Shown: one piece after another, positions 11,581 to 33,511 of the stretch
Numbering within the stretch: position 1 is the stretch's first letter
Layout: each line of letters begins with the position of its first letter
Assembly (NCBI RefSeq): GCF_001552675.1
Contig: NZ_BCRQ01000027.1
Span: forward strand, 1 to 37,154
Origin: Alicyclobacillus sendaiensis NBRC 100866
GTDB lineage: Bacteria > Bacillota > Bacilli > Alicyclobacillales > Alicyclobacillaceae
Direction of reading: 5' to 3'
Length of the DNA stretch: 37,154 bases
The notes under the pieces: model-generated
Seen by the model: only the letters and a program-made list of their open reading frames with translations
Databases searched by the model: none
Told to the model about the DNA's origin: nothing
Program-made: the position numbers and the translations under genes

Positions 11581-11614
11581 ACAAATCGATTTGTCCTTAG
11601 ACAAAACGATTTGG
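11581..11614. promoter_or_regulatory. tandem palindromic operators in the oppA leader (LacI-family-like)
   Basis: ACAAATCGATTTGT (11581-11594) is a perfect 14-bp palindrome with a central CG. ACAAAACGATTTGG (11601-11614) is an imperfect copy starting exactly 20 bases away, two helical turns, so both face the same side of the helix. Both lie just downstream of the predicted oppA transcription start. A central CG within an A/T-flanked palindrome is typical of LacI-family operators. The same core recurs at 13295 and 33501. Confidence 0.6.
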
Positions 11615-11618
11615 CTGA

Positions 11619-11642
11619 TGTCTCAAACATAAGATTGAGACA
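11619..11642. repeat. perfect inverted repeat spanning the oppA -10 region
   Basis: TGTCTCAA (11619-11626) and TTGAGACA (11635-11642) are perfect 8-base inverted arms with an 8-base spacer. The predicted -10 box (11626-11631) lies between them, so a bound dimer would block RNA polymerase. No regulator is assigned. Confidence 0.5.
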
Positions 11643-11654
11643 TGCCAAAATCAA
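11626..11654 (-). promoter_or_regulatory. predicted oppA operon promoter
   Basis: On the minus strand TTGATT (11654-11649) is followed, after exactly 17 bases, by TATGTT (11631-11626). Each box is 4/6 to sigma-A consensus. Transcription would begin near 11619, giving a leader of about 185 bases that holds the tandem operators and the cre-like site. No terminator separates it from celA, so celA transcripts may also read through. Confidence 0.5.
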
Positions 11655-11702
11655 TAGTCTTATTGAGCGATCCTTGTCTTTTTAAGCGTGTGCCTGTCAA
11701 GG

Positions 11703-13322
11703 CTATCGCCCTTTCCCGCGCGCCTCATGCAGACCCGCCATCACAAATACGGCAGGCGAATTCCAGTAGATGGCGACCTCGTTGGTCGAGTAACTGGCTT
11801 CGTGATCGAGGTACGCCTCCATCGCAGGTTTTCCCGCGAGCTGTGCGCGCGCCACCTCGTCCTGCAGGTTGCGGTTTGGCCCGCCGACGACCATGCCCGG
11901 GACGGGATCCACCACGTCGTCCGCGACCGATGGGCGGTGATGCGGATGGACCACCCGGTGTTGGCCGAAGCCCGTGACGAAGCACGTACCAAGCGGATTC
12001 GCGCCGAACAGGTAGTCCGCCGCTCGTTGGGCCACGGTGTGAGCCGCAGGATGGCTGACACCGGCGCCCTCCGCGAGCAGAAACGCCATCGCGCGGTTCA
12101 AGAGCACCATGTGGCTGCCCCAGATCCAGTCGTCATCTCGCATGGGGATGCCCAATGGATGAGACTCGGCCATCGCGGCGAGGACGTCGAGTTCTCGAAC
12201 GAGGCGCGCTTTCACCTTGTCGCGCACGTGACTCGACGCGGCGTCGCTCGGAGCGCGCAAGTATTCGATCACGCCGTAGAGCGCGACGTCCGCCCACCCC
12301 AGGTCCCACGGGAGATCGAGAAGGAGAAGCGGTTCACACCGGCGCGCCCAGGCCGGATCGCCCGTCATCCGGAACATGGCAGCCGACGCCCATAGCCATT
12401 CATCGCGGAGTTCGGCGTCGCCGTATTCGCCCGTGAGGATGCCATTGGGGTTGCGAAACGGCCGCATGTCGTGCTCGCCGAGCCACGCGTGCGCACGGCG
12501 AGCGGCGTCGGCGCAAGCCGACGACAGAGCCGGATCGAACGAGCGATACACGAGAGCGGCGTGGGCCATGACTGCGCAAAACGCGGCCGTAGCCGCGTAG
12601 GAGATAGGGCTCAGGACAAGAGGCGCGCGGTCGTCCTCGGGGCGGGTGTCGAGCGGGGGAAAGGAAGCCGTGGTGACTTTGTGATACACGCCGCCCGTTG
12701 CGGGATCCTGCATGGTGAGAAGCCAGACAACCTCCTCGCGCGCCACCTCGAGCACCGGCGGCAGGTGAGGCTCTCGATGCGCGGCGCGCATGGGGCGGAT
12801 GCGCGCGAGCGCCGGGGCGAAGTACTCGTGGGCCAGAAGCAAGTCGGCCACGGCCTTGGCCGCGGGGACGACGTACTTGCCGTAGTCGCCGGCGTCATGC
12901 CAACCGCCCTGGCAACGGACGGCGATGTCCGTCCCGTACACCTTGGCGTCGCTCGCGTGGCAGACCCCGTGTGCCCACGGACCAGCCTCGCCCTCGGGCA
13001 GCGCGGCGCCGCACAGCTGATAGTCGAAAAAGCGAACCAGCGCTTCGAGTACATCGCGGTACGCACGGCGATGGATCACGACGGGCACCTCGCTGGCCCC
13101 GACCCTCAAGGCGTAGGTTCCTGGGACGCGGAGCGCGGAAAAATCCCCGGCGTGCCAGTTTCCGCCGACGGGCTTGGTCATGCCCGCGAACACGGCCTGC
13201 CCATCCTGGGTGCGCAGCGCGAACGGCTGCGGCTCGCGGGCCTGGACCCAGAAGCGTTTCTCACCGCCGGTCAGATACCCGATCTGATTGTAGAAAATCG
13301 ATTTGGAGACGCGAGCTGGCAC
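11703..13322 (-). CDS. celA: family 9 endoglucanase, cytoplasmic (CelA/Cel9A)
   Basis: This 539-residue glycoside hydrolase family 9 enzyme cleaves internal beta-1,4-glucan bonds by inversion. An N-terminal Ig-like domain (about residues 5-85) precedes the (alpha/alpha)6 barrel. Catalytic residues fall at Asp143 and Asp146 in GGWHDAGDYGKYV and Glu515 in STNEVAIYW. Cys104, Cys121, His122 and His142 look like the structural zinc site I recall for the A. acidocaldarius enzyme; length and the Glu515 numbering also fit it. There is no signal peptide, so it acts inside the cell and needs imported oligosaccharides. GGGAGGGG lies eight bases before the GTG start. Codons 6-9 contain the palindrome AAATCGATTT, and the ribosome binding site sits in an inverted repeat. 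It follows nadA by 74 bases and precedes the importer operon. Confidence 0.95.
   Translation of the reverse strand: MPARVSKSIFYNQIGYLTGGEKRFWVQAREPQPFALRTQDGQAVFAGMTKPVGGNWHAGDFSALRVPGTYALRVGASEVPVVIHRRAYRDVLEALVRFFDYQLCGAALPEGEAGPWAHGVCHASDAKVYGTDIAVRCQGGWHDAGDYGKYVVPAAKAVADLLLAHEYFAPALARIRPMRAAHREPHLPPVLEVAREEVVWLLTMQDPATGGVYHKVTTASFPPLDTRPEDDRAPLVLSPISYAATAAFCAVMAHAALVYRSFDPALSSACADAARRAHAWLGEHDMRPFRNPNGILTGEYGDAELRDEWLWASAAMFRMTGDPAWARRCEPLLLLDLPWDLGWADVALYGVIEYLRAPSDAASSHVRDKVKARLVRELDVLAAMAESHPLGIPMRDDDWIWGSHMVLLNRAMAFLLAEGAGVSHPAAHTVAQRAADYLFGANPLGTCFVTGFGQHRVVHPHHRPSVADDVVDPVPGMVVGGPNRNLQDEVARAQLAGKPAMEAYLDHEASYSTNEVAIYWNSPAVFVMAGLHEARGKGR
13295..13304. promoter_or_regulatory. AAATCGATTT operator-like palindrome inside the celA 5' end
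   Basis: The same 10-bp palindrome as in the oppA leader occurs 18-27 bases into celA (codons for Lys, Ser, Ile, Phe). A repressor bound there would act as a roadblock. It is also simple coding sequence, so function rests on its recurrence at 11583 and 33501. Confidence 0.45.
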
Positions 13323-13365
13323 GTCGAATCCCCTCCCACCGGCTTTGCAGGAGAGAAGATTCGAC
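13323..13365. promoter_or_regulatory. inverted repeat enclosing the celA ribosome binding site
   Basis: GTCGAATC (13323-13330) and GATTCGAC (13358-13365) are perfect 8-base arms. In the celA mRNA the second-transcribed arm touches the GTG start, and the GGGAGGGG lies in the loop, where CUCC can pair with its GGAG. This could gate translation initiation. No terminator is seen between nadA and celA. Confidence 0.4.
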
Positions 13366-13395
13366 GGCTGCGCGAAAATCCCTGCCTTCGGCGCC

Positions 13396-14364
13396 TCAGC
13401 CGATGGCCACCATCCGCTCGATGGCCACCCGCGCGCGCTCCGCCACGTCGGCCGGCACCGAGATCACCGTCTCCATGCGAGCGAGGGCATCCCGCACCTT
13501 TTCGAGCGTGATCATCTTCATGAACGGACAGATGGCCGCGCGGTTCGCGGGGATGAACGTCTTGCCAGGGTTCTGGCGCTCCATCTGGTGTAGGATGCCG
13601 ACTTCCGTCGCCACGATGAACGCGCGCTTGTCGGATTCGCGCGCCCGCTTCAGCATGCCGCTCGTCGACAGGACATGGGTCCGATCCGCCGGCAGTTGCC
13701 CTTCGGCCAGCAGGTACATATTCGAGGTGGAGCAACCGCACTCGGGGTGAATCAACAGTTCCGCGTCGGGGTGGGCCGAGAGCGTCGCCTCGATGTCGTG
13801 GGGCCGGATCCCAGCGTGCACGTGACACTCGCCCATCCAGATGTGCAGATTGTCTCGCCCGGTCACCCGCTTCACATACGAGCCGAGAAACATGTCGGGC
13901 AGAAACAGGATCTCCCGATCTTCAGGGATGCTTTGCACCACCTGCACGGCGTTCGAGGACGTGCAGCAGTAGTCGCTCTCCGCCTTCACGTCGGCGGTTG
14001 TGTTCACATAGGCGACCACCACCGCACCCGGATGCTCCGCTTTCCACGCCCGGAGTTCATCCGCCGTGATGGAGTCCGCCAGCGAGCAGCCCGCGTTGGG
14101 ATCCGGCAAGAGCACCGTCTTGTCCGGGTTCAGGATGGCAGCCGTCTCGGCCATGAAGTGGACGCCGCAGAGCACAATGACGTCGGCGTCGGCCCGCATG
14201 GCGGCGCGCGCAAGCGCGAGCGAGTCCCCGAGCACGTCCGCGATGTCCTGAATTTCGGGCAGCTCGTAGTTGTGCGCGAGGATCAGGGCGTTGCGCTTTC
14301 TCTTCCACTCGAGAATCTCGTCAACCAAGGTCTGGCGTTCTACCTTCGTCTCCAGCACACGCAT
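13396..14364 (-). CDS. nadA: quinolinate synthase A
   Basis: NadA condenses iminoaspartate with dihydroxyacetone phosphate to quinolinate, the second step of de novo NAD synthesis, using a [4Fe-4S] cluster. Likely cluster ligands, by spacing, are Cys93 (AGCSLADS), Cys180 (GECHVHAG) and Cys279 (AAICPFM). Other family motifs are [12 protein letters not shown] at the N-terminus and [11 protein letters not shown]. The frame extends to 14460, but the ATG at 14364 lies eight bases after the nadB stop with GAGGGG just upstream; a GTG two codons later has more regular spacing. It is about 322 residues, close to the shorter NadA forms. It is the last gene of nadC-nadB-nadA; B. subtilis has the order nadB-nadC-nadA. 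Confidence 0.95.
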
Positions 14365-14371
14365 TCCCCTC

Positions 14372-15883
14372 TCAAGTCGTGATGGCGACAGACGTGAAAG
14401 CCGAATGCGCCTTGCCGATCCGGCTCGGTCGGGCGTAGGCCGGATCAGGCACTGGCGCATCCCGGCGAACGTGGCTTCCTCGGCTTTCCCGTCTCCACAG
14501 CGCCGAGCGCGCGATGAGCGAGGCCGCCATCACCGCCCCGGAGCCTGGATATCGGCGCGCCATGCCTTGAAGCTCCTCAAGCGCCGCGCGAAGCCCCGGC
14601 GCATCGCGCACGATCCCGACGAACGACCACATCAGGGGCGCGAGTTCAGGGAGAATCGCCTCGTCCTGCTCGGGGCGAAGCAGCCACTCAGGGTCTTCCA
14701 CGGTGTGCGTGCGCGCGCACGGCTCCTGCCGCACCGCTTCGCCGAACCTCCGCCCCATGACCACGCACTCGAGCAGCGAATTGCTCGCCAGCCGGTTGGC
14801 CCCGTGCACGCCCGTGCACGCCGTTTCGCCAAGGGCGAAGAGCCCCGGCACCGAGGTGCGCCCGGCGAGATCGGCCTCGATGCCGCCCATGAGAAAGTGC
14901 GCGCCAGGCGTCACGGGAATGGGCTGAGACGCAAGGTCGAGACCTGCGCGGCGAAGACGAGCCGCGATGGACGGGAAGCGCGCCGCGACGTCTGGCACCT
15001 TCGTCGCGTCGAGAAACACCTGATGGCCATCCGCCTCCGCCCGCGCGATGGCGAGGGCGATCACGTCGCGCGTGCGCAGGTTGTCCGCCGGATCGGCAAA
15101 CAGCGGCGCGCCTCGCTCGGTGACGAGCACCGCGCCCGCGCCGCGAAGCGCCTCGGACACGAGCATCGCGTCGTCGTCCCGCCCCAGCCACAGCGTCGGA
15201 TGAAACTGGACGAATTCGAGATTGGCGAGCGTGGCGCCCGCGTGATAGGCGAGCGCGACACCTGCGCCCACCGCGCTCGGCGGATTGGACGTGCGGCCGA
15301 ACAGGGCACCCACGCCGCCCGTGGCGAGGCCCACGGCGCGCCGAGCCCCGACGAGTCGGTGACGCGCCCCGTCCCAGGTCCAGGCGCCGACGGCCCGCCC
15401 GCTGGCGTCCTGCGCGATGCCGACGCAGTGCTCCTGCCGGAACTCGATCCGCGGATGGCGCAGCGCCGCCTGCCAGAGCGCTTCGGTGATGAACCGCCCG
15501 GTGGCGTCCCCGCCCGCGTGAACGATACGCGCACGCGTGTGCCCGCCTTCCCGCCCGAGTGCGAGCCGCCCGGACGGGTCGCGATCGAACGGAACGCCGA
15601 GCTGCGCGAGCCACTCGACGACCGACGGCGCCGCCACCGCGAGCTCGCGAACGCGCTCTGCGTCGCACAGACCGGCGCCGGCGCGCAGCGTGTCTTCGGC
15701 GTGCAGATGGGGGTCATCCCCCTCCCCCACCGCGGCCGCGAGGCCCCCCTGTGCCCGCGACGAACTCGACGCCTGCGGCCCGCCGCCGGCAAGGACGCAG
15801 ACGTCGTCCGTCTCTGCCGCAGCGAGCGCGGCGGTGAGCCCTGCGATCCCGGCACCAACCATCACGACACCAGCCGCCTCCAT
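14372..15883 (-). CDS. nadB: L-aspartate oxidase
   Basis: NadB oxidises L-aspartate to iminoaspartate with FAD, feeding NadA directly. The N-terminal dinucleotide motif [18 protein letters not shown] is followed by the Ser/Arg-rich FAD loop [13 protein letters not shown]. Substrate-binding segments [20 protein letters not shown] and [10 protein letters not shown] are as in the succinate dehydrogenase/NadB family. The C-terminal motif [16 protein letters not shown] is intact. The length of 503 residues is slightly short of the usual 530. GAGGAGGT six bases before the ATG overlaps the nadC stop, so translation is likely coupled within the operon. Confidence 0.95.
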
Positions 15884-15895
15884 CGCGGCACCTCC

Positions 15896-16741
15896 TCACC
15901 CAAGGTCCATCTCAATGTCGAGCCCCACGTCTACAGCCTGGGCGCGCATGGTGATGTGGCTCATGGAAATGAAGTCGACGCCCGTCTCCGCCACCGCTCT
16001 CAGCCGGCCCGGCCGCATGTTGCCCGACGCCTCGAGCGGAACGCGGCCGCCGGTACGCCGCACCGCCTCGCGCATGGCCTCGAGATCCATGTTGTCGAGG
16101 AGGACGACGTCGGCCCCCGCCGCGATGGCCTCCTCCAGCTGATCCAGGGATTCCACTTCCACCTCGACCTTGTGGGCAACGCCAGCCCGCGCCTTTGCGC
16201 GCGAGACGGCCTCCCGGACGCCGCCCGCAATGGCGATGTGGTTGTCCTTGATGAGCACCATGTCGTCGAGGGCAAACCTGTGATTCCAGGCGCCGCCCAC
16301 GCGGACCGCGTACTTCTCGAGCGCCCGCCATCCCGGCGTGGTCTTGCGCGTGTCCAGGATGCGCGCGCTCGTCCCCTCGACCTCGCGGACGGCGTCGCGC
16401 GCCGCCGTGGCGATGCCGGTCAAGCGGGACAGAAAGTTGAGCGCCGTGCGCTCCGCGCCGAGAATGGACCGCGCCGCGCCCTCCACCCGCATCACCACGC
16501 CGGAGCCGTCGAGATCGATCCCGTCCGGGCACAGGACGGTGACCTGGAGTCGCGGGTCCACCTCGTGAAACACCCAGGCGGCGACCTCTGTGCCGCACAC
16601 CCTGGACGGTTCTTTGATCCACACGCTCGCGCGCGCCGTCGCATCGGCCGGGATGACGGCTTCGGTCGTGAGATCGCCCCGGCCCAGGTCTTCGGCGAGC
16701 GCGAGGCGGACGAGATCGCGCGTCACCACGTCGAGCCACAT
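15896..16741 (-). CDS. nadC: nicotinate-nucleotide pyrophosphorylase (quinolinate phosphoribosyltransferase)
   Basis: NadC decarboxylates quinolinate and joins it to PRPP to give nicotinate mononucleotide. Family motifs include EDLGRGDLTTEAVIPAD, the active-site run ILDTRKTTPGWRALEKYAV, DDMVLIKDNHI, and the C-terminal EASGNM and DFISMSH segments. The frame is open to 16822, but the ATG at 16741 with GGGAGG ten bases upstream begins the conserved domain (281 residues). It is the first gene of the nad operon, and a palindromic operator-like region lies about 50-75 bases upstream of its start. Confidence 0.95.
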   Translation of the reverse strand: MWLDVVTRDLVRLALAEDLGRGDLTTEAVIPADATARASVWIKEPSRVCGTEVAAWVFHEVDPRLQVTVLCPDGIDLDGSGVVMRVEGAARSILGAERTALNFLSRLTGIATAARDAVREVEGTSARILDTRKTTPGWRALEKYAVRVGGAWNHRFALDDMVLIKDNHIAIAGGVREAVSRAKARAGVAHKVEVEVESLDQLEEAIAAGADVVLLDNMDLEAMREAVRRTGGRVPLEASGNMRPGRLRAVAETGVDFISMSHITMRAQAVDVGLDIEMDLG

Positions 16742-16791
16742 CGCCCTCACGCCTCCCTTGATGCGCCTCGCCGCGTCGCCAGGCGCACAAC

Positions 16792-16817
16792 ACTGTTTAA
16801 TCAACTGTATATACAGT
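16792..16817. promoter_or_regulatory. palindromic operator-like array upstream of nadC
   Basis: ACTGTATATACAGT (16804-16817) is a perfect 14-bp palindrome, and a further ACTGT half-site lies at 16792-16796. Half-site starts are spaced 12 and 9 bases. The position upstream of nadC fits a repressor of NAD synthesis such as NiaR, but I could not match that regulator's consensus from memory. The core also looks like an enterobacterial LexA box, which is not the form used in Firmicutes. Confidence 0.45.
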
Positions 16818-16859
16818 AGCACACACAGGATGGTGTTTCACCTGGAAGTTGCGAGGAGC

Positions 16860-16888
16860 TTGCGAAACGAGGGAAGGGGAAGTATACT
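16860..16888 (+). promoter_or_regulatory. promoter of the radical SAM gene
   Basis: TTGCGA (16860-16865, 4/6) is followed after 17 bases by TATACT (16883-16888, 5/6). Transcription would start near 16895, about 49 bases before the chosen ATG at 16944. Confidence 0.6.
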
Positions 16889-16943
16889 GAGATGAGAACA
16901 TATGTTCGGTTTCGCGCAGGTCGCGCTGAGGAGGGGTGCCGGG

Positions 16944-17933
16944 ATGGAGGCTCCGACGTTTCTTCGTCTGGATGTGAAGCGGGCGCTGAACCGGGTTCGC
17001 GCCGCGAGCATGCCGTTTGCGTGGTCGCTGAATCCGTACCGAGGCTGTGGGCACGGGTGCGCCTTCTGCTATGCCCGAGGTACGCATGAATATCTCGGGT
17101 ACCATGCGGACGACACGTTCCGCTCGCGCATCCACGTGAAGCAGGAGCTCCCTGCCGTCCTCGAGGCGGAGCTCAGCGCGCGGCTCGCGCGAGCCGGGGG
17201 AGATGTCGAACGGATGGCCGCTTCGCTCGGCATCGTGGCCATCGGCACGGCGACGGACCCGTATCAGTCGGCCGAGGCGCGCTTTGGCATCACGCGCCGG
17301 TGCCTCGAGGTCCTCGTCCGCTACGGCGTCCGGTTCAGCATCACGACGAGATCGCCGCTCGTGCTGCGAGATCTCGACCTGTTGAAGCGCGCCAGGCTGG
17401 AGGGCGTGCACGTGAGCCTGCACACGCTCGATGCCGAGATCTGGCGCGCCTTTGAGCCTGCCACGCCGCCGCCTGGCGTCCGGCTGCGCGCGTTGGCGCA
17501 GCTCGTGGAGGCCGGGCTCCCGGTGAGCGTCTTCGTGGCGCCGGTGCTCCCTTATCTGACAGACGACGTGGCGTCCATCGCGGCCGTCATGAAGGCCGCG
17601 CGGGCGGCAGGCGCCGCGGATGCAATGGTGTCGCCTCTGCGGTTGGCGCCCGAGGTCAAGCCGTGGTTCTTCGCTGTCCTGAGGCGCGCGTATCCGGCGA
17701 TGGTGGCGCGGTACGAGCGCTTGTACGCGGGCCGCGCCTATCCACCGCGCGCGTACGCCGAGCGATTGTACGCGGTGGAGGCGCTCGCCAGGCGGGCGGC
17801 GGGGCTCGCGCCGCGGCAGGTGCCCGCGGACGCACCGGGCGACGAGCCGGCCGCACAAACCGAGGGGGCGCGCGGTGAACCGAAACCTGCCGCGCCCGAG
17901 CCTCGCTGCGTGCAGTTGACGCTGCCGCTCTAG
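16944..17933 (+). CDS. SPL-like radical SAM protein with C-terminal clamp-binding-like motif
   Basis: This 329-residue protein belongs to the spore photoproduct lyase-like radical SAM family (COG1533). The cluster motif CGHGCAFC (C-x3-C-x2-C; Cys35, Cys39, Cys42) follows WSLNPYRG, and GTATDPYQ and FSITTRSPLVLRDLDLL match the family. It lacks the residues I would need to call true photoproduct lyase, so the substrate is unknown, although DNA is likely. The last six residues are QLTLPL, at the end of a Pro/Ala-rich tail, closely matching bacterial beta-clamp-binding hexapeptides such as QLSLPL. The frame opens at 16902, but GAGGAGGGG seven bases before the ATG at 16944 fixes the start. It converges on thiF with a 13-base gap and no terminator. 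Confidence 0.82.
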   Translation: MEAPTFLRLDVKRALNRVRAASMPFAWSLNPYRGCGHGCAFCYARGTHEYLGYHADDTFRSRIHVKQELPAVLEAELSARLARAGGDVERMAASLGIVAIGTATDPYQSAEARFGITRRCLEVLVRYGVRFSITTRSPLVLRDLDLLKRARLEGVHVSLHTLDAEIWRAFEPATPPPGVRLRALAQLVEAGLPVSVFVAPVLPYLTDDVASIAAVMKAARAAGAADAMVSPLRLAPEVKPWFFAVLRRAYPAMVARYERLYAGRAYPPRAYAERLYAVEALARRAAGLAPRQVPADAPGDEPAAQTEGARGEPKPAAPEPRCVQLTLPL

Positions 17934-17946
17934 GCGTCTTCGGGCA

Positions 17947-18978
17947 TCACATGCCGATGTACTGCGCGTAAAGCGAGCGGGCGCGGGCGGGATCGTCCGT
18001 GCCATGCACGAGCGCGCGGCCGTTCGGGAACACGGTGAGGGTCACGCCCTCCGCCTCAAATCGCAGCAGGGCGTCGTTCGCGCGCACAGCGCCAAGCGGT
18101 CGCAGGCGCTCGGCGAGCGCCTCGAGCGAAAGCGCCACGTCCGCCTCGGGCCGCACCTGAATCGTCTGGCGGCCGCAGAACGTGACGGAGAGCGCTCGGC
18201 GGCCCGCGCTGAGGGCCACAAACTCCCTCCGCGCGCAGCAGGGGCAGTCGGGCTTGGGACCGCCCATGCGGATGAGCCGGACATCGGTCTGCCACACGTC
18301 GGCCTGGAGGATGGCGTTCGACAGGGCGTCCTCACGGCCCGCGAGGTACTTCAGCACCTCCGCCACCTGGTACGACGCCATCCACTGAACGATAGGCGCA
18401 ATGACGCCGACCGTGTCGCACGTGTCATACCCCACCCGGGCACCGTGGCCCACGAGACACACCAGGCACGGCGTGCGGCCGGGCCGCAAGAACGCGCTCG
18501 TGCCATGCGCCTCCACCGCGCCCGCGTAGGCCCATGGGATGCCGTGCTTGACCGCCACCTCGTTGATCAAGTACCGGACCTCGAAGTTGTCGCTTCCGTC
18601 GATCACGACGTCCACGTCGGCGAGGAGGCGCTCCGCATTTGAGGCGTCGAGATCGTCCACCACCGCTTCGATGGCGATGCTGCTGTTGGCGGCCGCAAGC
18701 GCGTCGCGCGCCGCGATGGCCTTCGGCGTGGCGTTGCGGGCGTCCTCCTCGGTGTAGAGCATTTGGCGCTGCAGGTTCGTGATCTCGACGACGTCCCGGT
18801 CAATGAGCCGCAGGTAGCCCACGCCGGCGCGCGCGAGCTGCGCGGCGCTCGCCGTCCCGAGCGCGCCGAGCCCCACCACGGCCACGCGTGCGCTCGAGAT
18901 CCGCTCCTGGCCCGCCTCGCCGATGTGCCGAAAGCGAATCTGGCGCGAATAGCGGCTGTTAAATGCGAACTCCGTCAT
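17947..18978 (-). CDS. thiF: ThiF/MoeB-family sulfur-carrier adenylyltransferase
   Basis: This E1-like enzyme adenylates the C-terminal Gly of ThiS with ATP so that sulfur can be loaded for thiazole formation. The Rossmann motif VVGLGALGTASAAQLARAG, the Arg/Asp segment DRDVVEITNLQRQ and the DGSDNFEVRYLINE run are all present. Zinc-binding Cys pairs are CLVC and CPCC. At 343 residues it has an extra C-terminal domain of about 90 residues (ending LYAQYIGM), similar in size to B. subtilis ThiF and without a rhodanese domain. It may also serve MoaD. It is the last gene of the thi operon, 15 bases after thiG. Confidence 0.9.
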   Translation of the reverse strand: MTEFAFNSRYSRQIRFRHIGEAGQERISSARVAVVGLGALGTASAAQLARAGVGYLRLIDRDVVEITNLQRQMLYTEEDARNATPKAIAARDALAAANSSIAIEAVVDDLDASNAERLLADVDVVIDGSDNFEVRYLINEVAVKHGIPWAYAGAVEAHGTSAFLRPGRTPCLVCLVGHGARVGYDTCDTVGVIAPIVQWMASYQVAEVLKYLAGREDALSNAILQADVWQTDVRLIRMGGPKPDCPCCARREFVALSAGRRALSVTFCGRQTIQVRPEADVALSLEALAERLRPLGAVRANDALLRFEAEGVTLTVFPNGRALVHGTDDPARARSLYAQYIGM

Positions 18979-18993
18979 GCCGCAGCCATCCCT

Positions 18994-19773: not shown

Positions 19774-19926
19774 GGGGAACTTGCTCCTCTCCACGTACGG
19801 ATATCTGCGCCTTGGCGATCCGCCAGCGCGGGGGACGTTTGCTCAGCGCGCCCTTCCCGCGCGGATGCGTGCTTCCCGGCAAGCGGTCCGCGCGGCAAGC
19901 GGCATCTGTCAACGGCCGAAGGGCCA

Positions 19927-24314: not shown

Positions 24315-24343
24315 CGCGCTCTCTCCTCACACGGGATTTGACC

Positions 24344-26571: not shown

Positions 26572-26584
26572 CGGCATCTCCTCC

Positions 26585-27280
26585 TCACAACTGCACCGCT
26601 TCGCCCACCACGGCCGAGCCCCGCCGCTCAAAGGCCGTGCGATACTCGACCCTATCCACCTCGCAGCCGTCTCCCAACACGACGACGTCGCCCCGAATGC
26701 GGCGCGCGAGAACCGCCTCCACCTCGATGCGGTCCCCTTCCATCACCTCTACCTCCAGGCGCGGCTTCGAAAACCAACCTCCCTTGCCGACGCGGGTCGT
26801 GATGGTCGTGCAGCCGATCTCCCGCACCCTCGACTTGCCCATCAGCTCGAATTCGATCTCGTCCGCGTTCATCAGCGCCCGGCATTCGACGCTGCCCGTG
26901 ACGCAAATGCGATCCGCTTCGATGGGCCCTCCGACCCGCGCGCGGCCGCCGACGTGTACGCGAGCGGCTTTCAACCCGCGCCCGATTTTCGCCATGCCGG
27001 CGATCTCGGCCTCGCTCCCGACCTCACAGTCGCCCGCCACATCGCACAAGCCGTTCACTTCAAACGCCCCCGCCCTGATGCTTCCATTCACGGTCACGCG
27101 GCCATTCACCTCGAACTTCTCTGTCACGTCCATCCGCCCGCCGACGTGCGCGCTGCCATTCACCTCGCAACGCTCGCACGACACGTCGCCCTGCATCTTG
27201 GCCGTCCCGTTGACCTCGACCTTGCGATACGCGCCGCCCCCAAGCGTGGCACGACCGGAAACCTCGAGATCCTCAGCCAT
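26585..27280 (-). CDS. yhbE: bactofilin-like polymer-forming protein, YhbE type
   Basis: This 231-residue bactofilin-like protein shows a recurring EVNG repeat (VEVNGTA, CEVNGSA, FEVNGRV, FEVNGLC) spaced about 20 residues apart, as expected for rungs of a beta-helix that polymerises into filaments. The second half contains an Arg/Lys-rich segment (TTRVGKGGWFSKPRLEVEV) and then EVEAVLARRIRGDVVVLGDGC, matching the YhbF paralogue downstream. The ATG at 27280 is chosen; GGGGGG lies eight bases upstream. It sits between yhbD and yhbF as in B. subtilis, which supports the assignment. Confidence 0.8.
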   Translation of the reverse strand: MAEDLEVSGRATLGGGAYRKVEVNGTAKMQGDVSCERCEVNGSAHVGGRMDVTEKFEVNGRVTVNGSIRAGAFEVNGLCDVAGDCEVGSEAEIAGMAKIGRGLKAARVHVGGRARVGGPIEADRICVTGSVECRALMNADEIEFELMGKSRVREIGCTTITTRVGKGGWFSKPRLEVEVMEGDRIEVEAVLARRIRGDVVVLGDGCEVDRVEYRTAFERRGSAVVGEAVQL

Positions 27281-27312
27281 ATGCGATTCCCCCCACACGT
27301 AGACGCCTCAGG

Positions 27313-27939
27313 TCATCCCATCAATTTAAGCTTCAACTGCTCCACCGCGCTCGCCACATCGGCGGAAAATGCGACGTTCGCCTGCGGGTCGATCACGACT
27401 TCCGCATCGGGCGCGCGCGCCAGCCAGATGCCGACGCCGAGTTTGCGGACGAGATCGAGCCGCACTTGCATGTCACGAAACATTGTTACGCTATGTTCGA
27501 ACATGGGGATGAGTTGCCTCGCCTCGTCCAGGCTGACCTGGCCGCTCGCGATAGCCTCGTGAACCAGGTGCGCGCAGACAATTTCGCGAAACGCGAGCAC
27601 GCGAGCGCGAGGGTGAGCCTCCTCATACAAGCGCAGGGCGGGAGGGCTCGCGATGCCGAGCCGCACGAGATCCTCGCCCGTCCGCTCGACGTCAATTCCG
27701 TCCGGAGACAGCCGCTTCGCCAGCTCATCGAGAGGGACATCCTCTTTCCACTGCTTGATCTGCTCGATGCGACTGAGAATTTTGTCGCGCGGAAAGAACG
27801 TCTCCTGGCCGGTGAACGTGGACTTTCGAATGAACCACTCCTCCGGGATCAGCTTTTTGCGCTTCCACCGGTACAGTTGGCCGTAGGAGATACCCGTGAT
27901 GTCGAGGAGTTCCTTTTTCGAGATCAGTTCGTCCTCCAT
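27313..27939 (-). CDS. yhbD: YhbD-family protein (DUF4004) with MerR-like helix-turn-helix
   Basis: This 208-residue protein begins MEDELISKKELLDITGISYG and continues QLYRWKRKKLIPEEWFI, a MerR-like winged helix-turn-helix (about residues 5-40), followed by a conserved FFPRDKILSRIEQIK segment. It matches the B. subtilis YhbD family, whose gene also precedes yhbE and yhbF. It is probably the transcriptional regulator of this operon. GGAGAT lies eight bases before the ATG. A near-perfect 21-bp palindrome lies about 30-50 bases upstream of the start, with a similar sequence inside the gene near its 3' end, which suggests autoregulation. Confidence 0.8.
   Translation of the reverse strand: MEDELISKKELLDITGISYGQLYRWKRKKLIPEEWFIRKSTFTGQETFFPRDKILSRIEQIKQWKEDVPLDELAKRLSPDGIDVERTGEDLVRLGIASPPALRLYEEAHPRARVLAFREIVCAHLVHEAIASGQVSLDEARQLIPMFEHSVTMFRDMQVRLDLVRKLGVGIWLARAPDAEVVIDPQANVAFSADVASAVEQLKLKLMG
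27476..27496. promoter_or_regulatory. second, intragenic copy of the yhbD operator
   Basis: The plus-strand run AACATTGTTACGCTATG (27479-27495) differs at one base from the same 17-mer in the upstream operator (27972-27988). Its left arm is only partly palindromic. It lies in the 3' third of yhbD, encoding HSVTMFRD. Confidence 0.45.
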
Positions 27940-27965
27940 GAAGCACCATCTCCACGCCGCGATCG

Positions 27966-27986
27966 TAACATAACATTGTTACGTTA
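27966..27986. promoter_or_regulatory. near-perfect palindromic operator upstream of yhbD
   Basis: Left arm TAACATAACA and right arm TGTTACGTTA flank a single central T; nine of ten positions pair. On the minus strand TTGAAA (about 28012-28007) followed 16 bases later by CATAAC would be a promoter whose -10 lies within the palindrome. This fits repression by a dimer, perhaps YhbD itself. Confidence 0.6.
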
Positions 27987-28048
27987 TGCAAGCGGCATGA
28001 AGCCTTTCAGAACGGGCGCGCGTCGGCGTCAACGGGCCAACCTGGACC

Positions 28049-28080
28049 AAAAGCAAGAGCGCCTGCCTCTCGGCAGGCGC
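28049..28080 (-). terminator. terminator downstream of the first orphan solute-binding protein
   Basis: GCGCCTGCC (28059-28067) and GGCAGGCGC (28072-28080) form a perfect 9-bp stem around TCTC, followed on the minus strand by TCTTGCTTTT. It lies 15 bases after the stop codon of the gene at 28095. Confidence 0.75.
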
Positions 28081-28094
28081 ACGGAGCGAAAAAC

Positions 28095-29873
28095 TCACTT
28101 CGTCACGTACCAGTACTGCATCTCGGGCAGGCCATCCGCGGCGTTCAGGTGCTGCAGCACACCCTGCACGTGCGGCGCCACGACGACGAGCGTGGCTGGG
28201 TTGACCGTCCACAGGAACGGCAGGACCTTCGCCGTGTACATTTCGTACTGGTCGAACACCTTCATCGTCTCAGCGGTCGTCGCGTACGGCTGGTGCGTCG
28301 CGTTGATCAGCTGATCTTCCTTCGGATCGCTGAAGCCCGTGCCGCTCGGCGCACCCGTGTTGAACAGACCTTCGCCCGACGGATAGAAGCCCGGGCCGTT
28401 GTACCCCCAACCGGAGCCAAGCGCGAGATCCCAGGAGTGGTTCGACGGATCGGACGTGATGGAGATGAACTGCGAGAACGGCTCGCCCTTGAGCGTCACC
28501 TTCACGCCGATCTGCCCGAAGTCCTGTTGCACGAGCTCGGCCTCCTGCTGCGTCGACTCGCTGCCCGTGACATACATCATGGTGAGGTTCAGCTTCTTGC
28601 CCTGCGCGTTCGTCATGACGCCGTTCTTCATGTGCCAACCCGCGCTCTCGAGCAGCTGCTTCGCCTTGGCGAGGTTGAAGCTATACAGGCCGTTCACAGC
28701 CGGATCGTAGAACTTCGTCGCGGGCTGCGGCGGAATCGGGCCGTAGAGCGGCACCGCGAAGCCCTTGTAGATGTCCTTCACAATGGTCTCGCGGTCAATC
28801 GCCATCTGCAGCGCCTGGCGGACCGGCAGTTGATCAAAGACGCTCGCATTGGGCGCGCCCTTGTACATGTTCATCTCAATCCAGAAGATACCAAACGTAT
28901 ACTCCGGCGTCACCGTATCGCCCATCGACGTGAGCGCCGACTCCGAGCCGAGTTGCGACTGATCCAGGTAGCCGACGTTGATCTGGCCGCTGCGGAGCGC
29001 CGCAAACTCCGCCTCGTTGGAGCCCTCATACTGGAAGACAATCTTGCTCACTTGAGGCTTGTGGCCCGCGTAGCTCGGGTTCGGGACAATGACCCACTCC
29101 TGCTTGTCCTTCGCCAGCAGCGGCTTGAACGGGCCGTCCACGACTTTGTCGAACATCATATTGGTCGCATTGGCGCCCAGGTACTTGATCTCGTCCGTGA
29201 TGTTCGACTTGACGTCCATATAGGAAGCAGGAAGCGGCGTGAGCTGAATAATGCCGTTGTAGATAAACCACTGCTGGTTCGTCGGCTGTTTGAGCGTGAT
29301 GGTGACCTCGTACGGGCCATTCGCCACCACACTCGCCACACCGTTCGGGATATCACCTGTGCCCACGCCCACAAACGGCCACGGGCTCGGCGCGTTCGAC
29401 GCGGAAGCCGCCTTAATCACATTCCACGTAAAGAGGACGTCCTTCGACGTCACCGGCTGGCCGTTCGACCACTTCCACTTCGGGTTCAGGAAGATGTGGT
29501 AAACAGTACCCTGCTTGTTGTACGTGATGTTTTTCGCAATGGAATCCTGCCAGTTGATGCTGTAGTCGTTGTTCAGCACCAACATCGGGATGTACATCTG
29601 ATCGACAATCTGGGCGTTATACAGCGAATCGTTCGCCGCGTTGAAGATGGGAAGGAACCAGTTGAGGTCCGTCTGCGGAGGCAGCGCGTAGTCGATTACG
29701 CCCTCAGGGTTTACCGGCCCAGTGGTCGTCGCGGTCGTCGTGGAATTTTTGGTGTTGGTGGTGTTGTTGGAAGCGCTGTTCGACGTGGATGTACCGCACC
29801 CGGTCACGCCGAGCACGACTGCCGCGGCAGCACCCGCAGAAACAAGCGCTCGCTTTCTAAGTTTTCGCACCAT
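28095..29873 (-). CDS. orphan ABC solute-binding lipoprotein, family 5 (copy 1)
   Basis: This 592-residue extracellular lipoprotein has a basic N-terminus, hydrophobic core and lipobox VTGC (Cys about 26). A low-complexity linker rich in Ser, Thr and Asn follows (about residues 27-55). The family 5 binding core is clear, with YHIFLNPKWKWSNGQPVTSKD, YEVTITLKQPTNQQWF and VRQALQMAIDRETIVKDIY. It would capture peptides or oligosaccharides, but no permease or ATPase is adjacent, so it must share a transporter encoded elsewhere. GGGAGG precedes the ATG closely. It is a tandem paralogue of the gene at 30059, with long identical runs. It has its own promoter and terminator. Confidence 0.9.
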   Translation of the reverse strand: MVRKLRKRALVSAGAAAAVVLGVTGCGTSTSNSASNNTTNTKNSTTTATTTGPVNPEGVIDYALPPQTDLNWFLPIFNAANDSLYNAQIVDQMYIPMLVLNNDYSINWQDSIAKNITYNKQGTVYHIFLNPKWKWSNGQPVTSKDVLFTWNVIKAASASNAPSPWPFVGVGTGDIPNGVASVVANGPYEVTITLKQPTNQQWFIYNGIIQLTPLPASYMDVKSNITDEIKYLGANATNMMFDKVVDGPFKPLLAKDKQEWVIVPNPSYAGHKPQVSKIVFQYEGSNEAEFAALRSGQINVGYLDQSQLGSESALTSMGDTVTPEYTFGIFWIEMNMYKGAPNASVFDQLPVRQALQMAIDRETIVKDIYKGFAVPLYGPIPPQPATKFYDPAVNGLYSFNLAKAKQLLESAGWHMKNGVMTNAQGKKLNLTMMYVTGSESTQQEAELVQQDFGQIGVKVTLKGEPFSQFISITSDPSNHSWDLALGSGWGYNGPGFYPSGEGLFNTGAPSGTGFSDPKEDQLINATHQPYATTAETMKVFDQYEMYTAKVLPFLWTVNPATLVVVAPHVQGVLQHLNAADGLPEMQYWYVTK

Positions 29874-29902
29874 TTGTACCTCCCTGAGAAGACGTAGAGA
29901 AT

Positions 29903-29934
29903 GCCCGCATCGAACGGTGTCGCTCGATGCGGGC
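29903..29934. repeat. 11-bp inverted repeat in the 5' leader of copy 1
   Basis: GCCCGCATCGA (29903-29913) and TCGATGCGGGC (29924-29934) form a perfect 11-bp stem with a 10-base loop. It lies between the promoter and the ribosome binding site, with no T tract after it, so mRNA stabilisation or protein binding is more likely than termination. Confidence 0.55.
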
Positions 29935-29965
29935 CAGTAGCAGGTGTAGAACCAAGGACACTTCT

Positions 29966-29974
29966 AGTATAGCA
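29966..29974 (-). promoter_or_regulatory. extended -10 promoter of copy 1
   Basis: On the minus strand TGCTATACT forms an extended -10 about 93 bases before the ATG at 29873. No strong -35 is seen 17 bases upstream. Confidence 0.5.
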
Positions 29975-30058
29975 AGTCCAATTGCGCATTGCACGCATTT
30001 TTTAAAGAGATCTTCAATCGAGCTTCAAAACTTCGCGTTCACGCCACCGAATCGAGCG

Positions 30059-31795
30059 TCACCGATCCGAAACCGTCCAGTACTGCATCTCGGGAATGCC
30101 AACCGCGCCGTTGTAATACGGCAACACGTTGTGGACGCTCGGCGCGATGACGGCTACGGTCGCGTTGTTCACGTTCCATAGCATCGGCAACTGCTCCGCC
30201 GTGTAGTACTCGTATTGATAGAAGTGCTTCATGGTCTCGGCGGTGGAACTGTACGGTACGTGCGTCGCATTGATCAGCGCGTCTTCGGTGGCATTGCTGT
30301 AGCCAGTGCCGCTCGGCGCGCCCGTGTTGAACAGGCCATCTCCGGACGGATAGTAGCCCGGACCGCTGTAGATCCATCCTGAGCCGAGCGCGAGATCCCA
30401 GTTGGTCTCCTTCGCATTGCTTGTCAGCGAAATCAGTTGGTCAAACGGCATGCCCTTGAGCGACACCTTCACGCCAATCTGCGCGAGCTCCTGCTGGATG
30501 AGCTCTGCCTCCTGGACGGTGGTCTCGACGCCTGTCGCATAAATCATGGTGAAGTTCATCTTCTGGTTGCCTTTGGTCATCACGCCGTTCTCAAGCTTCC
30601 AGCCGTGCGCTTCGAGCAGTTTTTTCGCCGCCGCCGGGTTATAAGGATACAGCTTCTCCACAGCCGGATCGTAGAACTGCGTGCGGGGTTCAGGCGGAAT
30701 CGGCCCATGCAGCGGGACCGCGTACCCCTTGTAGATGTCTTGTGCAATTTCCTGATTGTTGATGGCCTGCATCAGGGCTTGGCGCACATACAGTTGGTCG
30801 AAGATCTTTGAGTTCGGGGATGCCGGATACATGTTCATCTCGGTCCAGAAGACCGCAAACATGTATTCCGGCGCGATGGTGAAACCGGACGACTTCAGCT
30901 GCGGAACGGCCGCTGATTCCGACGGATCCAAGTATCCAACGTTGACCTGGCCGCTGCGAAGCGCCGCGAGCTCCGCTTCGTTGGAGCCTTCGTACAGGAA
31001 GATGAGCTTCGAAACGGTGCTCTTGTGCCCCGCGTACATCGGGTTAGGTTTCAGCACCCACTCCTGGCGGTCCTTTGCGTAGACGGGTTCAAACGGCCCA
31101 TCCACCACTTTGTCGAACATCATATTGGGCCCATTGGCGCCGAGGTACTTCAGCTCGTCGGTCATGTTTTTCTTAACGTCCATGTACTTCGCGGGCATGG
31201 GCGTCATCTGCATGAGACCGTTGTAGATAAACCACTGCTGGTTAGTGGGCTGTTTGAGCGTGACCGTCACCTCGTAAGGCCCGTTCGCCACCACACTTTG
31301 GATGCCGTTGGGGATGTCCCCCGTTCCCGCGCCGACGTACGGCCACGGCGACGGCGCGTTCGGCGCGCAGGCTGCCTTCATGACGTTCCAGGTGAAGAGG
31401 AGATCCGCAGACGTCACCGGTTGGCCGTTAGACCATTTCCACTTCGGATTCAAGTAGATGTGGTAGACAGTACCTTGCGCATTGTACGTGACCTTTTCCG
31501 CGATCGAATTCTTCCAGTCGATCTGGTAACTGTTGTTCAGCTGCAATAGAGGGACAAACATCTGGTACACGAGCTGCGCGTTCGCCAGCGTGTCCGTGGG
31601 ACCCGTGAAGAGAGGCAGAAACCAATTCAAATCGGTTGCTGGTTGCACAGCATACTCAATGACACCGCCACTCTGGGGTTTTGAAACCGGATGAGACGAA
31701 GTTTGATTCGACGCGGAAGAGCCGCATCCCGTCACCCCCATCACAATGGCCGCGGCCATGCCCGCAGCAGCGATTCCTTTTCCTCGACGTGTCAC
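30059..31795 (-). CDS. orphan ABC solute-binding lipoprotein, family 5 (copy 2)
   Basis: This is the paralogue of the gene at 28095, about 578 residues. The signal sequence from the GTG at 31795 (VTRRGKGIAAAGMAAAIVMG) ends at lipobox VTGC. The mature protein shares runs such as NPKWKWSNGQPVTS, VANGPYEVTVTLKQPTNQQW and NMMFDKVVDGPF with copy 1, while the linker after the Cys is shorter. The open frame reaches 32011, but only the GTG at 31795 has a GAGGGGG upstream (11 bases) and gives a sensible signal peptide. It has its own promoter. No transporter genes are adjacent. Confidence 0.88.
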   Translation of the reverse strand: MTRRGKGIAAAGMAAAIVMGVTGCGSSASNQTSSHPVSKPQSGGVIEYAVQPATDLNWFLPLFTGPTDTLANAQLVYQMFVPLLQLNNSYQIDWKNSIAEKVTYNAQGTVYHIYLNPKWKWSNGQPVTSADLLFTWNVMKAACAPNAPSPWPYVGAGTGDIPNGIQSVVANGPYEVTVTLKQPTNQQWFIYNGLMQMTPMPAKYMDVKKNMTDELKYLGANGPNMMFDKVVDGPFEPVYAKDRQEWVLKPNPMYAGHKSTVSKLIFLYEGSNEAELAALRSGQVNVGYLDPSESAAVPQLKSSGFTIAPEYMFAVFWTEMNMYPASPNSKIFDQLYVRQALMQAINNQEIAQDIYKGYAVPLHGPIPPEPRTQFYDPAVEKLYPYNPAAAKKLLEAHGWKLENGVMTKGNQKMNFTMIYATGVETTVQEAELIQQELAQIGVKVSLKGMPFDQLISLTSNAKETNWDLALGSGWIYSGPGYYPSGDGLFNTGAPSGTGYSNATEDALINATHVPYSSTAETMKHFYQYEYYTAEQLPMLWNVNNATVAVIAPSVHNVLPYYNGAVGIPEMQYWTVSDR

Positions 31796-31863
31796 TGTCT
31801 CTCGAACCCCCTCAATGTTCTGAAAACCTCTCATTTGAACCAAGATTTCAGACAAGCAGGCCC

Positions 31864-31892
31864 ATTGTACGACGCGTCGACGGCCGTGTAAA
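31864..31892 (-). promoter_or_regulatory. sigma-A promoter of copy 2
   Basis: On the minus strand TTTACA (31892-31887, 5/6) and TACAAT (31869-31864, 5/6) are separated by exactly 17 bases. This is among the best promoter matches in the window, about 62 bases of leader before the GTG at 31795. Confidence 0.7.
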
Positions 31893-31960
31893 GGGGAAGA
31901 TGTGTGACAACTGTCCATGATAAGGCCAAACATCGCGCCAGACCGCCAATCGAAGTCAAT

Positions 31961-31994
31961 AAAACAGACACATCGGCGGCGCGCCGATGTGTCT
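31961..31994 (-). terminator. terminator of the DinB-fold gene
   Basis: AGACACATCGGCG (31966-31978) and CGCCGATGTGTCT (31982-31994) form a perfect 13-bp stem with a three-base loop. On the minus strand it is followed by GTTTTATT. It begins 14 bases after the stop codon of the gene at 32008. Confidence 0.85.
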
Positions 31995-32007
31995 CGTCGC
32001 TTCGACT

Positions 32008-32451
32008 TCAAATTCCAAGCAACTTTTTCACAAGCGGGATTTGCCCTCGATGGTGTGCCGTGTGCGCAATCGCATACGCCGCGAGCTGGCGCTTGTTGAC
32101 CTCGCCAACCCCCAGCTTGGCTCCCGGCTCATCCAACTGCTGTGCCGTCAGGTGCTCAAACGCGTCCCTGGCCAGGCGCTCGTTTTCCGCCCACATCGAC
32201 TTGATCTTCGCGACATCCCAACTCGTCGCCAAAAACGGCGCCCTCGCGTCGATGTCCGGCGTCTCTCCCTTCAGCTGCGCAAAGAAGCGGCGTTCCACAA
32301 GCAAGGTGTGTTCCAGGATCGACGCGATGTTGTTGAAATGATCCGCCGGCTTTTTCACCCATTGTTCGTCCGTCAGATCATCCACCATCTGATGAATCGT
32401 CGCGTGCACCTTCAGGTAGAGATCGTGGAGGTCTTGCATCTCCTTCAACAT
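32008..32451 (-). CDS. DinB-fold metal-dependent protein
   Basis: This 147-residue four-helix-bundle protein belongs to the DinB/YfiT-like family. The metal-binding His triad is present: His48 in SILEHTLLVE, and His130 and His134 in AIAHTAHHRGQ. Members include mycothiol- or bacillithiol-dependent transferases and many of unknown function; the sequence here does not decide the substrate. GGGAGG eight bases before the ATG sets the start. It is transcribed alone, divergent from the TIGR01777 gene. Confidence 0.82.
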   Translation of the reverse strand: MLKEMQDLHDLYLKVHATIHQMVDDLTDEQWVKKPADHFNNIASILEHTLLVERRFFAQLKGETPDIDARAPFLATSWDVAKIKSMWAENERLARDAFEHLTAQQLDEPGAKLGVGEVNKRQLAAYAIAHTAHHRGQIPLVKKLLGI

Positions 32452-32518
32452 AGCCTCGTTCCTCCCTCATCATCGCCACGGCCCCATCGCCGTTGGCGGT
32501 CCGCCTTCGGCCCTCCTT

Positions 32519-32561
32519 CATTGTAGCGCGATCACGGCCGCGCGCACGATCTGCTACAATG
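32519..32561. promoter_or_regulatory. symmetrical divergent promoter region with inverted repeat
   Basis: CATTGTAGC (32519-32527) and GCTACAATG (32553-32561) are perfect 9-base arms 25 bases apart. Each arm contains a TACAAT -10 box facing outward: plus strand 32555-32560, preceded by TGC as an extended -10, and minus strand 32525-32520. The -35 boxes are weak. Confidence 0.5.
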
Positions 32562-32595
32562 CCATCAGGATCATCTTGCCCGGGAGGCGCCACGC

Positions 32596-33462
32596 GTGCA
32601 CATCTACCTCCTCGGCGGCTCCGGATTCATCGGCCGCCATCTCGCGCGCGAACTTGAACGCCAAGGCCACCAGCCGGACGTCGTACGGCGACCGTACGCG
32701 CCAGAGGTTCTGCGCGTCCGTTTTGCCGCGAGCGCCGAACGCGGCGAGCCCTACGCCATCTGCAACCTCGCCGGCGCTTCGCTCAATCGAAAGCGCTGGA
32801 GCGCAGCGTACCGGCGCGAAATTGTCCGATCGCGCGTCGACACGGTTCGCGCCGTGATCGCGGCCCTCGAAGGTCTGCCCTCCGCGCCCACCGCGTACCT
32901 GCAGGCCTCCGCCGTGGGTTACTACGGCTCGTCTCCGGACAGGACGTTTACCGAGACCTCTCCGCCCGGAAACGACTTTCTGGCGCGCGTGTGCGTGGCG
33001 TGGGAGGAGGCCGCAGAGCCCCTCCGCGCCCTCACGCGGGTGGCCTTTCTGCGGTTCGGCATGGTGCTCGGGCGCGACGGCGGCGCGCTGCCCCTCATGT
33101 GGCCCGTGTTCCAGCTGGGTCTCGGAGGAACGCTCGGATCTGGCCGTCAGTGGATATCGTGGATTCACGTCCACGACGCTGCCCGACTCGCCGCGTGGGT
33201 CCTCGCGGACCATCGGTTGGACGGCCCCTTCAACGCCACCGCACCCGAGCCCGTGCAAATGCGCGGCTTCACGCGCACGCTGGCCGAGGCGCTTCACCGC
33301 CCCCACCTCACCCGTGTTCCAAGCGCCGTACTGCGCCTGGCGCTCGGCCGGCGCGCCACCCTCGTGCTCGACGGTCAGCGCGTGTTGCCTCAACGTGCGC
33401 TCGATCTCGGCTTCACCTTTGCCTACCCGACCCTTGATGCCGCCATTTTGGACTTCCTGTGA
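32596..33462 (+). CDS. TIGR01777-family NAD(P)-binding oxidoreductase/epimerase
   Basis: This 288-residue short-chain dehydrogenase-like protein belongs to the YfcH/YfhF (TIGR01777) family. The dinucleotide motif LLGGSGFIGRHLA lies at residues 5-17, the segment YLQASAVGYYGS carries the active-site Tyr region, and ISWIHVHDAARLAAWVL is the family signature. The C-terminal DUF1731-like part includes PSAVLRLALGRRATLVLDGQRVLPQ. The substrate is unknown for the family. The GTG start has GGGAGG eight bases upstream. It lies 96 bases before the MFS gene. Confidence 0.88.
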   Translation: MHIYLLGGSGFIGRHLARELERQGHQPDVVRRPYAPEVLRVRFAASAERGEPYAICNLAGASLNRKRWSAAYRREIVRSRVDTVRAVIAALEGLPSAPTAYLQASAVGYYGSSPDRTFTETSPPGNDFLARVCVAWEEAAEPLRALTRVAFLRFGMVLGRDGGALPLMWPVFQLGLGGTLGSGRQWISWIHVHDAARLAAWVLADHRLDGPFNATAPEPVQMRGFTRTLAEALHRPHLTRVPSAVLRLALGRRATLVLDGQRVLPQRALDLGFTFAYPTLDAAILDFL

Positions 33463-33469
33463 GCCGGAC

Positions 33470-33499
33470 TTGTGCACCTCCCCCTCCTGCCCTTAGAAT
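33470..33499 (+). promoter_or_regulatory. candidate promoter of the ACS-type MFS gene
   Basis: TAGAAT (33494-33499, 5/6) is preceded at 18 bases by a weak TTGTGC (33470-33475). It is followed immediately by the operator-like palindrome at 33500. Confidence 0.45.
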
Positions 33500-33511
33500 G
33501 AAATCGATTTC
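33500..33511. promoter_or_regulatory. AAATCGATTT operator-like palindrome at the MFS transcription start
   Basis: GAAATCGATTTC is a perfect 12-bp palindrome with central CG, adjacent to the predicted -10 box, so a bound repressor would overlap the start of transcription. It shares the 10-bp core with sites in the oppA leader and in celA. Confidence 0.55.

Follow-up and report, generated by a model that had tools for sequence, protein, structure and literature searches.

Do the genes of an Opp-type importer (oppABCDF), of a glycoside hydrolase (GH) family 9 cellulase (celA) and of a transporter of the major facilitator superfamily (MFS) answer to a common regulator in Alicyclobacillus sendaiensis NBRC 100866? 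The question is raised by the palindrome AAATCGATTT, which has the central CG and the shape of a LacI-type operator and which recurs at all three in the 37,154-nucleotide stretch of DNA analysed here (contig NZ_BCRQ01000027.1, hereafter the window; C27 of genome G000, whose 2.79 Mb are held in 153 contigs). We propose, with a probability of about 0.7, that AAATCGATTT is the operator core of one autoregulated LacI-family protein, encoded on contig C16 and called C16-LacI below, which would control dispersed plant-fibre genes: the predicted targets are its own gene, a divergent celB-like gene, the opp importer, celA, a GH3 gene and a GH113 operon. Judged from the genome comparisons, celA and opp probably do belong to a genuine regulon, and it probably extends well past the window.

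Exact copies of AAATCGATTT were found at 11583-11592, 13295-13304 and 33501-33510 and a copy with one mismatch at 11603-11612; these are the only four matches in the window at up to one mismatch, and shuffled sequences gave a mean of 0.65 and reached 4 in none of 100 cases. The first copy sits within a 14-bp palindrome, ACAAATCGATTTGT (11581-11594), the second, on the minus strand, covers celA codons 7-10, and the third begins two bases after a putative -10 box. The preliminary description had placed the exact copies, the longer palindrome and the degenerate neighbour exactly so, had put one copy in the first celA codons and another just past a -10 box, and had named the importer, the cellulase and the transporter as neighbours, all of which we confirmed. 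Its estimate of 0.01 chance copies per window is also close to ours (0.005 by base composition, 0.017-0.024 by Markov models of orders 1-4; 3 found). For the whole genome, 0.4 copies were expected by composition and 1.3-1.8 by the Markov models, which were trained on 230 kb of the same genome including all 9 sites, and 9 were found. The reversed word had 0 copies, a weak control because that word carries stop codons in 2/3 frames.

All nine genomic copies, counted like the other genome-wide matches with exact and IUPAC patterns, are found either within carbohydrate or transport genes or upstream of them. Five are intergenic, in the promoters of oppA, the MFS gene, a LacI-family gene and two genes for solute-binding proteins (SBP) of family 5, one of which heads an Opp-type operon ending in a GH1 beta-glucosidase; four are in coding sequence, namely in celA, the permease of the GH1 operon, a GH67 gene and a GFO/IDH/MocA gene with a GH36 neighbour. 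The LacI-type reading that the preliminary description gave of the palindrome is supported for the oppA and celA sites, the word being CG-centred, rare, placed at carbohydrate or transport genes and conserved in a LacI-family promoter. Across clade A, 39 of 43 exact copies were upstream of or inside homologues of the glycan and transport set, MFS and SBP genes included (G000 9/9, G002 8/8, G003 7/8, G009 1/3, G011 6/6, G014 8/9); clade B gave 5/14 in G005, 5/12 in G012 and 6/11 in G010, the last covering 11 of 13 exact sites since two on contig C31 were left out. In G004, which lacks C16-LacI, 15/20 copies are in coding sequence and 0/20 have a neighbour with a blastp match to the glycan and transport set, so that the random, mainly coding spread named beforehand as evidence against the idea is true of this genome and not of G000. 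Bare counts of the 10-mer across the genus proved uninformative, as genomes without C16-LacI hold 5-27 copies (those of G004 lie in lower G+C, 51%). That an A+T-rich word recurs here by chance or through codon usage would suit clade B and G004, where the copies lie largely within unrelated coding sequence, and we nevertheless think it very improbable, given the 9 copies found against 1.3-1.8 expected, their placement at glycan genes and the conserved tandem sites and spacing.

The C16-LacI gene (G000:C16:45086-46096) is the candidate regulator, with a LacI helix-turn-helix (HTH) match of 54.0 bits and a Peripla_BP_3 match of 130.4 bits; the genome has 11 LacI HTH matches. Of the 14 further genomes of the genus, 8 have an orthologue of 74-93% identity, and none was found in the remaining 6 at E 1e-60. 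In 7/8 orthologues the lacI promoter holds two sites 14 bp apart, the partner of AAATCGATTT being AAAACGATTT, AAATCGTTTT or another exact copy; in G009 there is one site, with one mismatch. Contigs C72 and C16 of G000 each end inside the lacI/celB tandem operator, just past one of its sites, and therefore the assembly broke at this repeat. The gene at the end of C72 encodes a celB-like protein of 959 residues, and a celB-like gene is divergent from lacI at 6/7 fetched loci tested, G009 being the exception. This protein had no Pfam match and a weak partial PDB match to family 51-type arabinofuranosidases. For A. acidocaldarius DSM 446, PMC5901876 describes an endoglucanase of 959 residues (CelB, Aaci_0048) in the vicinity of Aaci_0060, a GH67 gene; the C72 gene fits it in the two features compared, size and neighbourhood. 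Outside the genus, 1 of 26 genomes of the family, G037, has a homologue of C16-LacI (51% identity), whose recognition helix reads SPATVSLALN vs SPTTVSWALN in C16-LacI, and no such site occurs there. We provisionally assign the site to C16-LacI because of the autoregulation, the co-occurrence and this changed recognition helix.

The form found at the C16-LacI promoter, HAAAWCGWTTTD ([ACT]AAA[AT]CG[AT]TTT[AGT]), has 10 matches in G000 against about 2.0 expected (Markov orders 1-3), and 10/10 are at glycan genes. Six are in promoters: two between lacI and celB (at the C72 and C16 ends), two before oppA, one about 87 bp upstream of a GH3 gene of 782 residues (C1:88813, beta-glucosidase/xylosidase type) and one about 12 bp upstream of a glyoxalase-GH113 gene pair (C3:46283, the GH113 enzyme of mannanase type). 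The other four are in celA, GH67, the GH36-linked oxidoreductase and the GH1-operon permease. In G002, 10/11 matches are at glycan genes, including one that falls within a GH10 gene, and the eleventh is in unrelated coding sequence.

Conservation upstream of orthologues, which the preliminary description had proposed to check, was seen at oppA (8/8) and the MFS gene (9/9, as GAAA[TC]CGATTTC), and within celA in 5/9; rows L160 and L255, whose 5' flank is cut by a contig end, do not enter these comparisons. The C..G-flanked site precedes all eight oppA orthologues (at least 76% identity), from clade A through clade B, immediately downstream of the putative promoter TTGATT-17-TATGTT. The second oppA operator is kept in 5/5 clade A alignments, with a variable linker between the two operators, and the whole promoter-operator unit is duplicated about 134 bp apart in G005 (L175, G005:C12:71000-78000) and G010 (L210). 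No site of the C..G type was found at the oppA relatives of 49-69% identity in G001, G007, G020, G022 and G028, which lack the regulator, or at the four examinable oppA relatives in G037. An inverted repeat, TGTCTCAA-N8-TTGAGACA (11619-11642), spans the putative oppA -10 box, is kept in 5/5 clade A alignments and is perhaps the site of a second regulator. An oppA paralogue of 60% identity (G000:C33:8007-10105) consists of two overlapping pieces with internal stops and looks broken. In celA, whose best solved match is the cellulase 3ez8 (537 aa), AAA TCG ATT T is unchanged, even at synonymous positions, in 5/5 clade A orthologues, whose first 200 residues show 71-78% protein identity (a comparison that left out G009), and is missing from 4/4 more distant relatives at about 40% identity.

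The MFS site was found 55-58 bp upstream of the start codon in the nine orthologues, and just 6/159 twelve-column windows of the alignment are equally conserved; on this alignment it is a real promoter element, although it varies to GAAACCGATTTC in 3/9. Whether it belongs with oppA and celA depends on the bases that flank the core. In C16-LacI self-sites the core is preceded by A, C or T and followed by A, G or T, and the self-sites of a LacI paralogue on contig C67 read CGAAANCGNTTTCG in 9/9 genomes listed; the oppA and celA sites belong to the C16 class, and the sites at the MFS gene and at SBP genes on C23 and C88 have G..C flanks. A single regulon defined by the bare 10-mer was dropped, as the flanks differ among sites and the two paralogues have distinct self-sites. 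With matrices built from the self-sites (9 genomes each, counted as independent), celA sites scored 17.8-21.1 on the C16 matrix and 8.4-9.9 on the C67 matrix, oppA sites of the eight orthologues 12.3-19.8 and 1.6-9.0, and six SBP sites 5.1-14.8 and 17.0-25.2, respectively, while the MFS site gave 16.8 vs 13.4 (13.4 vs 13.1 in G012), below every self-site of either class.

The G..C-flanked sites on C27, C23 and C88 may be operators of the C67 paralogue, an explanation to which we give slightly less than an even chance: its self-site type precedes the C67-type lacI genes of all the genomes listed, in G010 and G012 these genes immediately precede SBP genes and in G001 one adjoins an SBP gene, and the SBP sites score clearly for it. 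It fits the MFS site less well, which lacks the outer C..G and falls below all C67 self-sites (21.7-25.5), and an SBP site in G005:C6 suits C16 better (21.4 vs 7.7). That C16-LacI reads the MFS site too, tolerating G..C flanks, agrees with the higher C16 score of this site, the proximal oppA site itself reaching just 12.3, and with its retention in G009 beside C16-LacI although oppA is gone; we hold it to be unlikely, as G..C flanks occur in 0/16 C16-LacI self-sites and the GAAACCGATTTC change likewise in 0/16, and the three genomes with that change keep exact C..G oppA sites. The MFS site could also be a catabolite-responsive element (cre) of CcpA: TGAAATCGATTTCC agrees at 13/14 positions with TGWAANCGNTNWCA, which we take to be the Bacillus consensus and which may not be that of this genus, the site overlaps the likely transcription start, a cre-like regular expression matched nowhere else in the scanned stretches of G000, and C58 encodes a CcpA-like protein (TIGR01481, 382 bits, under the cut-off of 442). 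We consider this doubtful, since the genus may have a consensus of its own and the scan left out the C55 gluconate-type operon and other likely CcpA targets. In all, we lean moderately towards another LacI-type protein (the C67 paralogue or CcpA) rather than C16-LacI as the reader of the MFS site, and no further than that because G009 keeps C16-LacI. The preliminary description had suggested that celA, opp and the MFS gene form one regulon; the shared operator type of celA and opp bears out the first part, and the three-way link is unproven in view of the G and C flanks of the MFS site, its GAAACCGATTTC variants and the unsettled matrix comparison.

Further sites of this kind were observed elsewhere. 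At L032 (3710-3732, G000:C55), an MFS-gluconokinase-type gene pair is preceded by ATATCGATTT and AAATCGTTTT, spaced 13 bp apart, which may be the operator of the C55 LacI protein. At L170, L183, L184 and L198 (G003, G011, G014 and G009), A..T-flanked AAATCGATTT lies before, or at the place of, a family 1 sugar-binding protein gene, and these loci adjoin a C16-LacI paralogue, which is 53-55% identical in G011 and G014 and fragmentary in G003. At L295 2000, in G004, GAAATCGATTTC precedes an apparent LacI-type gene.

A number of observations weigh against the regulon that we propose for C16-LacI. G009 keeps C16-LacI and the exact MFS site, with oppA absent and celB not beside lacI, a pattern which could mean that the MFS gene is a C16-LacI target after all, and the matrices count their 9 genomes each as independent. 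Four of the ten G000 matches of HAAAWCGWTTTD are in coding sequence, where PMC4052901 puts less than 1% of LacI-type sites, and coincidence of codons (NRF, IDF) may explain the matches in GH67, the oxidoreductase and the permease. In G005 only 7/20 matches are at such genes, by our own reading, and reversed patterns gave 1, 7 and 10 matches in G000, G002 and G005; therefore G000 gives a clear signal, and G002 and G005 give weaker ones. Just 2/12 columns of the distal lacI site are invariant. In the oppA alignment, 51/329 twelve-column windows match the conservation of the operators, and the clade A footprint proves little alone because of this; conservation windows were rejected as evidence there, the region being too conserved to discriminate. 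Both sites also occur at a 96% identical oppA in G025, where no C16-LacI was found at E 1e-60, and it is possible that this oppA, whose gene runs off the contig end, is a stray sequence. Finally, G037 carries its LacI homologue and oppA relatives without sites.

The genomes directly show the sites, where they lie, how they are conserved and which genes adjoin them (Table 1); binding and repression by C16-LacI and the molecule it senses we infer. At oppA, C16-LacI on two operators just downstream of the -10 box would block transcription of the opp genes, which likely form one operon, and at celA it may act as a roadblock when bound in the first codons. From the shared intergenic region it would control both itself and celB, and an oligosaccharide or sugar from fibre would release it. 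Closest solved structures gave no hint of the effector. The best NCBIfam match of the MFS protein is TIGR00893 (241 bits, under its cut-off of 395). The stretch from the opp cluster to the MFS gene holds two more oppA-like binding-protein genes of family 5, at 28095-29873 and 30059-31648, whose products have about 30% identity to oppA or the C88 SBP.

Table 1. Genes, putative promoter boxes and operator-like sites of the window.
Feature	Position	Strand	Remarks
oppABCDF importer genes	5436..11520	-	SBP_bac_5, BPD_transp_1, OppC_N, ABC_tran, oligo_HPY domain matches
oppF	5436-6392	-	
oppD	6382-7374	-	
oppC	7371-8267	-	
oppB	8298-9263	-	
oppA	9322-11520	-	Start codon uncertain
Proximal oppA operator CAAATCGATTTG	11582..11593	-	Conserved C..G-flanked site
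Second oppA operator CAAATCGTTTTG	11602..11613	-	Centre 20 bp from that of the proximal copy
Putative oppA -10 box TATGTT	11626..11631	-	Read from alignment; same boxes in clades A and B
Putative oppA -35 box TTGATT	11649..11654	-	17 bp from -10; read from alignment
celA, GH9 cellulase	11703..13322	-	Glyco_hydro_9, CelD_N
Operator-like site CAAATCGATTTT	13294..13305	-	Within celA codons 6-10
Putative MFS -35 box TTGTGC	33470..33475	+	Read from alignment
Putative MFS -10 box TAGAAT	33494..33499	+	18 bp from -35
Operator-like site GAAATCGATTTC	33500..33511	+	G..C flank class; overlaps likely transcription start
MFS transporter	33559..34887	+	Anion:cation symporter type; MFS_1

Published expression data touch the same kinds of genes. 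According to PMC5901876, addition of xylose or glucose to A. acidocaldarius DSM 446, whose genes we paired with the present ones by family and length and not by sequence, lowered Aaci_0048 5.6-fold and 2.8-fold, the GH67 gene Aaci_0060 1.7-fold and 2.5-fold, the GH1 gene Aaci_1895 7.9-fold and 2.3-fold and the GH3 gene Aaci_2630 more than 4-fold and nearly 2-fold, respectively; the GH9 gene Aaci_2475 fell about 2.8-fold on both sugars, and the Opp genes next to it were strongly down on xylose. This drop is consistent with a shared regulator, though not specific, because 15/19 glycoside hydrolase genes fell, a breadth that belongs with the points raised above against our proposal, and the part of PMC5901876 considered here assigns no LacI protein to these genes. 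The same text proposes Opp-type importers adjoining glycoside hydrolases as possible sugar importers, and the C16-LacI regulon likewise predicts that the so-called oligopeptide importer would carry fibre-derived sugars.

The regulon would thus turn an orphan motif into a concrete regulator-operator-target hypothesis in a thermoacidophile, a source of industrial enzymes, and may offer a cause for the catabolite control that PMC5901876 reports as non-classical. It is a long shot that C16-LacI moreover governs plant-fibre use throughout the A. acidocaldarius group as its master regulator and is the missing factor behind the stronger effect of xylose, which in PMC5901876 lowers these genes more than glucose does. 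If so, xylose or its product could favour the DNA-bound form, and the protein would unite secreted (celB-like) and cytoplasmic (celA, GH3, GH113, perhaps GH67, GH10 and GH36-linked) enzymes with an Opp-type importer.

A literature search on Alicyclobacillus regulation, with subscription papers mostly outside its reach, returned no description of this regulon, which as far as that literature shows is undescribed and of a known kind. The closest solved full-length relatives of C16-LacI are those of E. coli PurR (E ~1e-47), which senses purine, and the similarity speaks for the fold and not for the effector. CcpA is a related protein with a CG-centred palindrome, and the MFS site resembles its cre; the C16 protein differs from it (132.8 bits vs a cut-off of 442.35) and is not CcpA, and the Bacillus cre has G before AAA, unlike the oppA and celA sites with C or T. 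CelR and CelR-like proteins are LacI-type regulators of cellulase genes; compared by description only, CelR acts on the same kind of target as C16-LacI and differs in organism and operator. The LacI-family carbohydrate regulons of PMC4052901, whose main text, in the part available, makes no mention of Alicyclobacillus, share with the present system the even CG-centred palindrome, autoregulation, sites near promoters and glycan targets. The present system differs from them in one likely site within coding sequence; moreover, their regulators are mostly local, whereas here several unlinked cellulose, xylan and mannan operons would stand under one protein.

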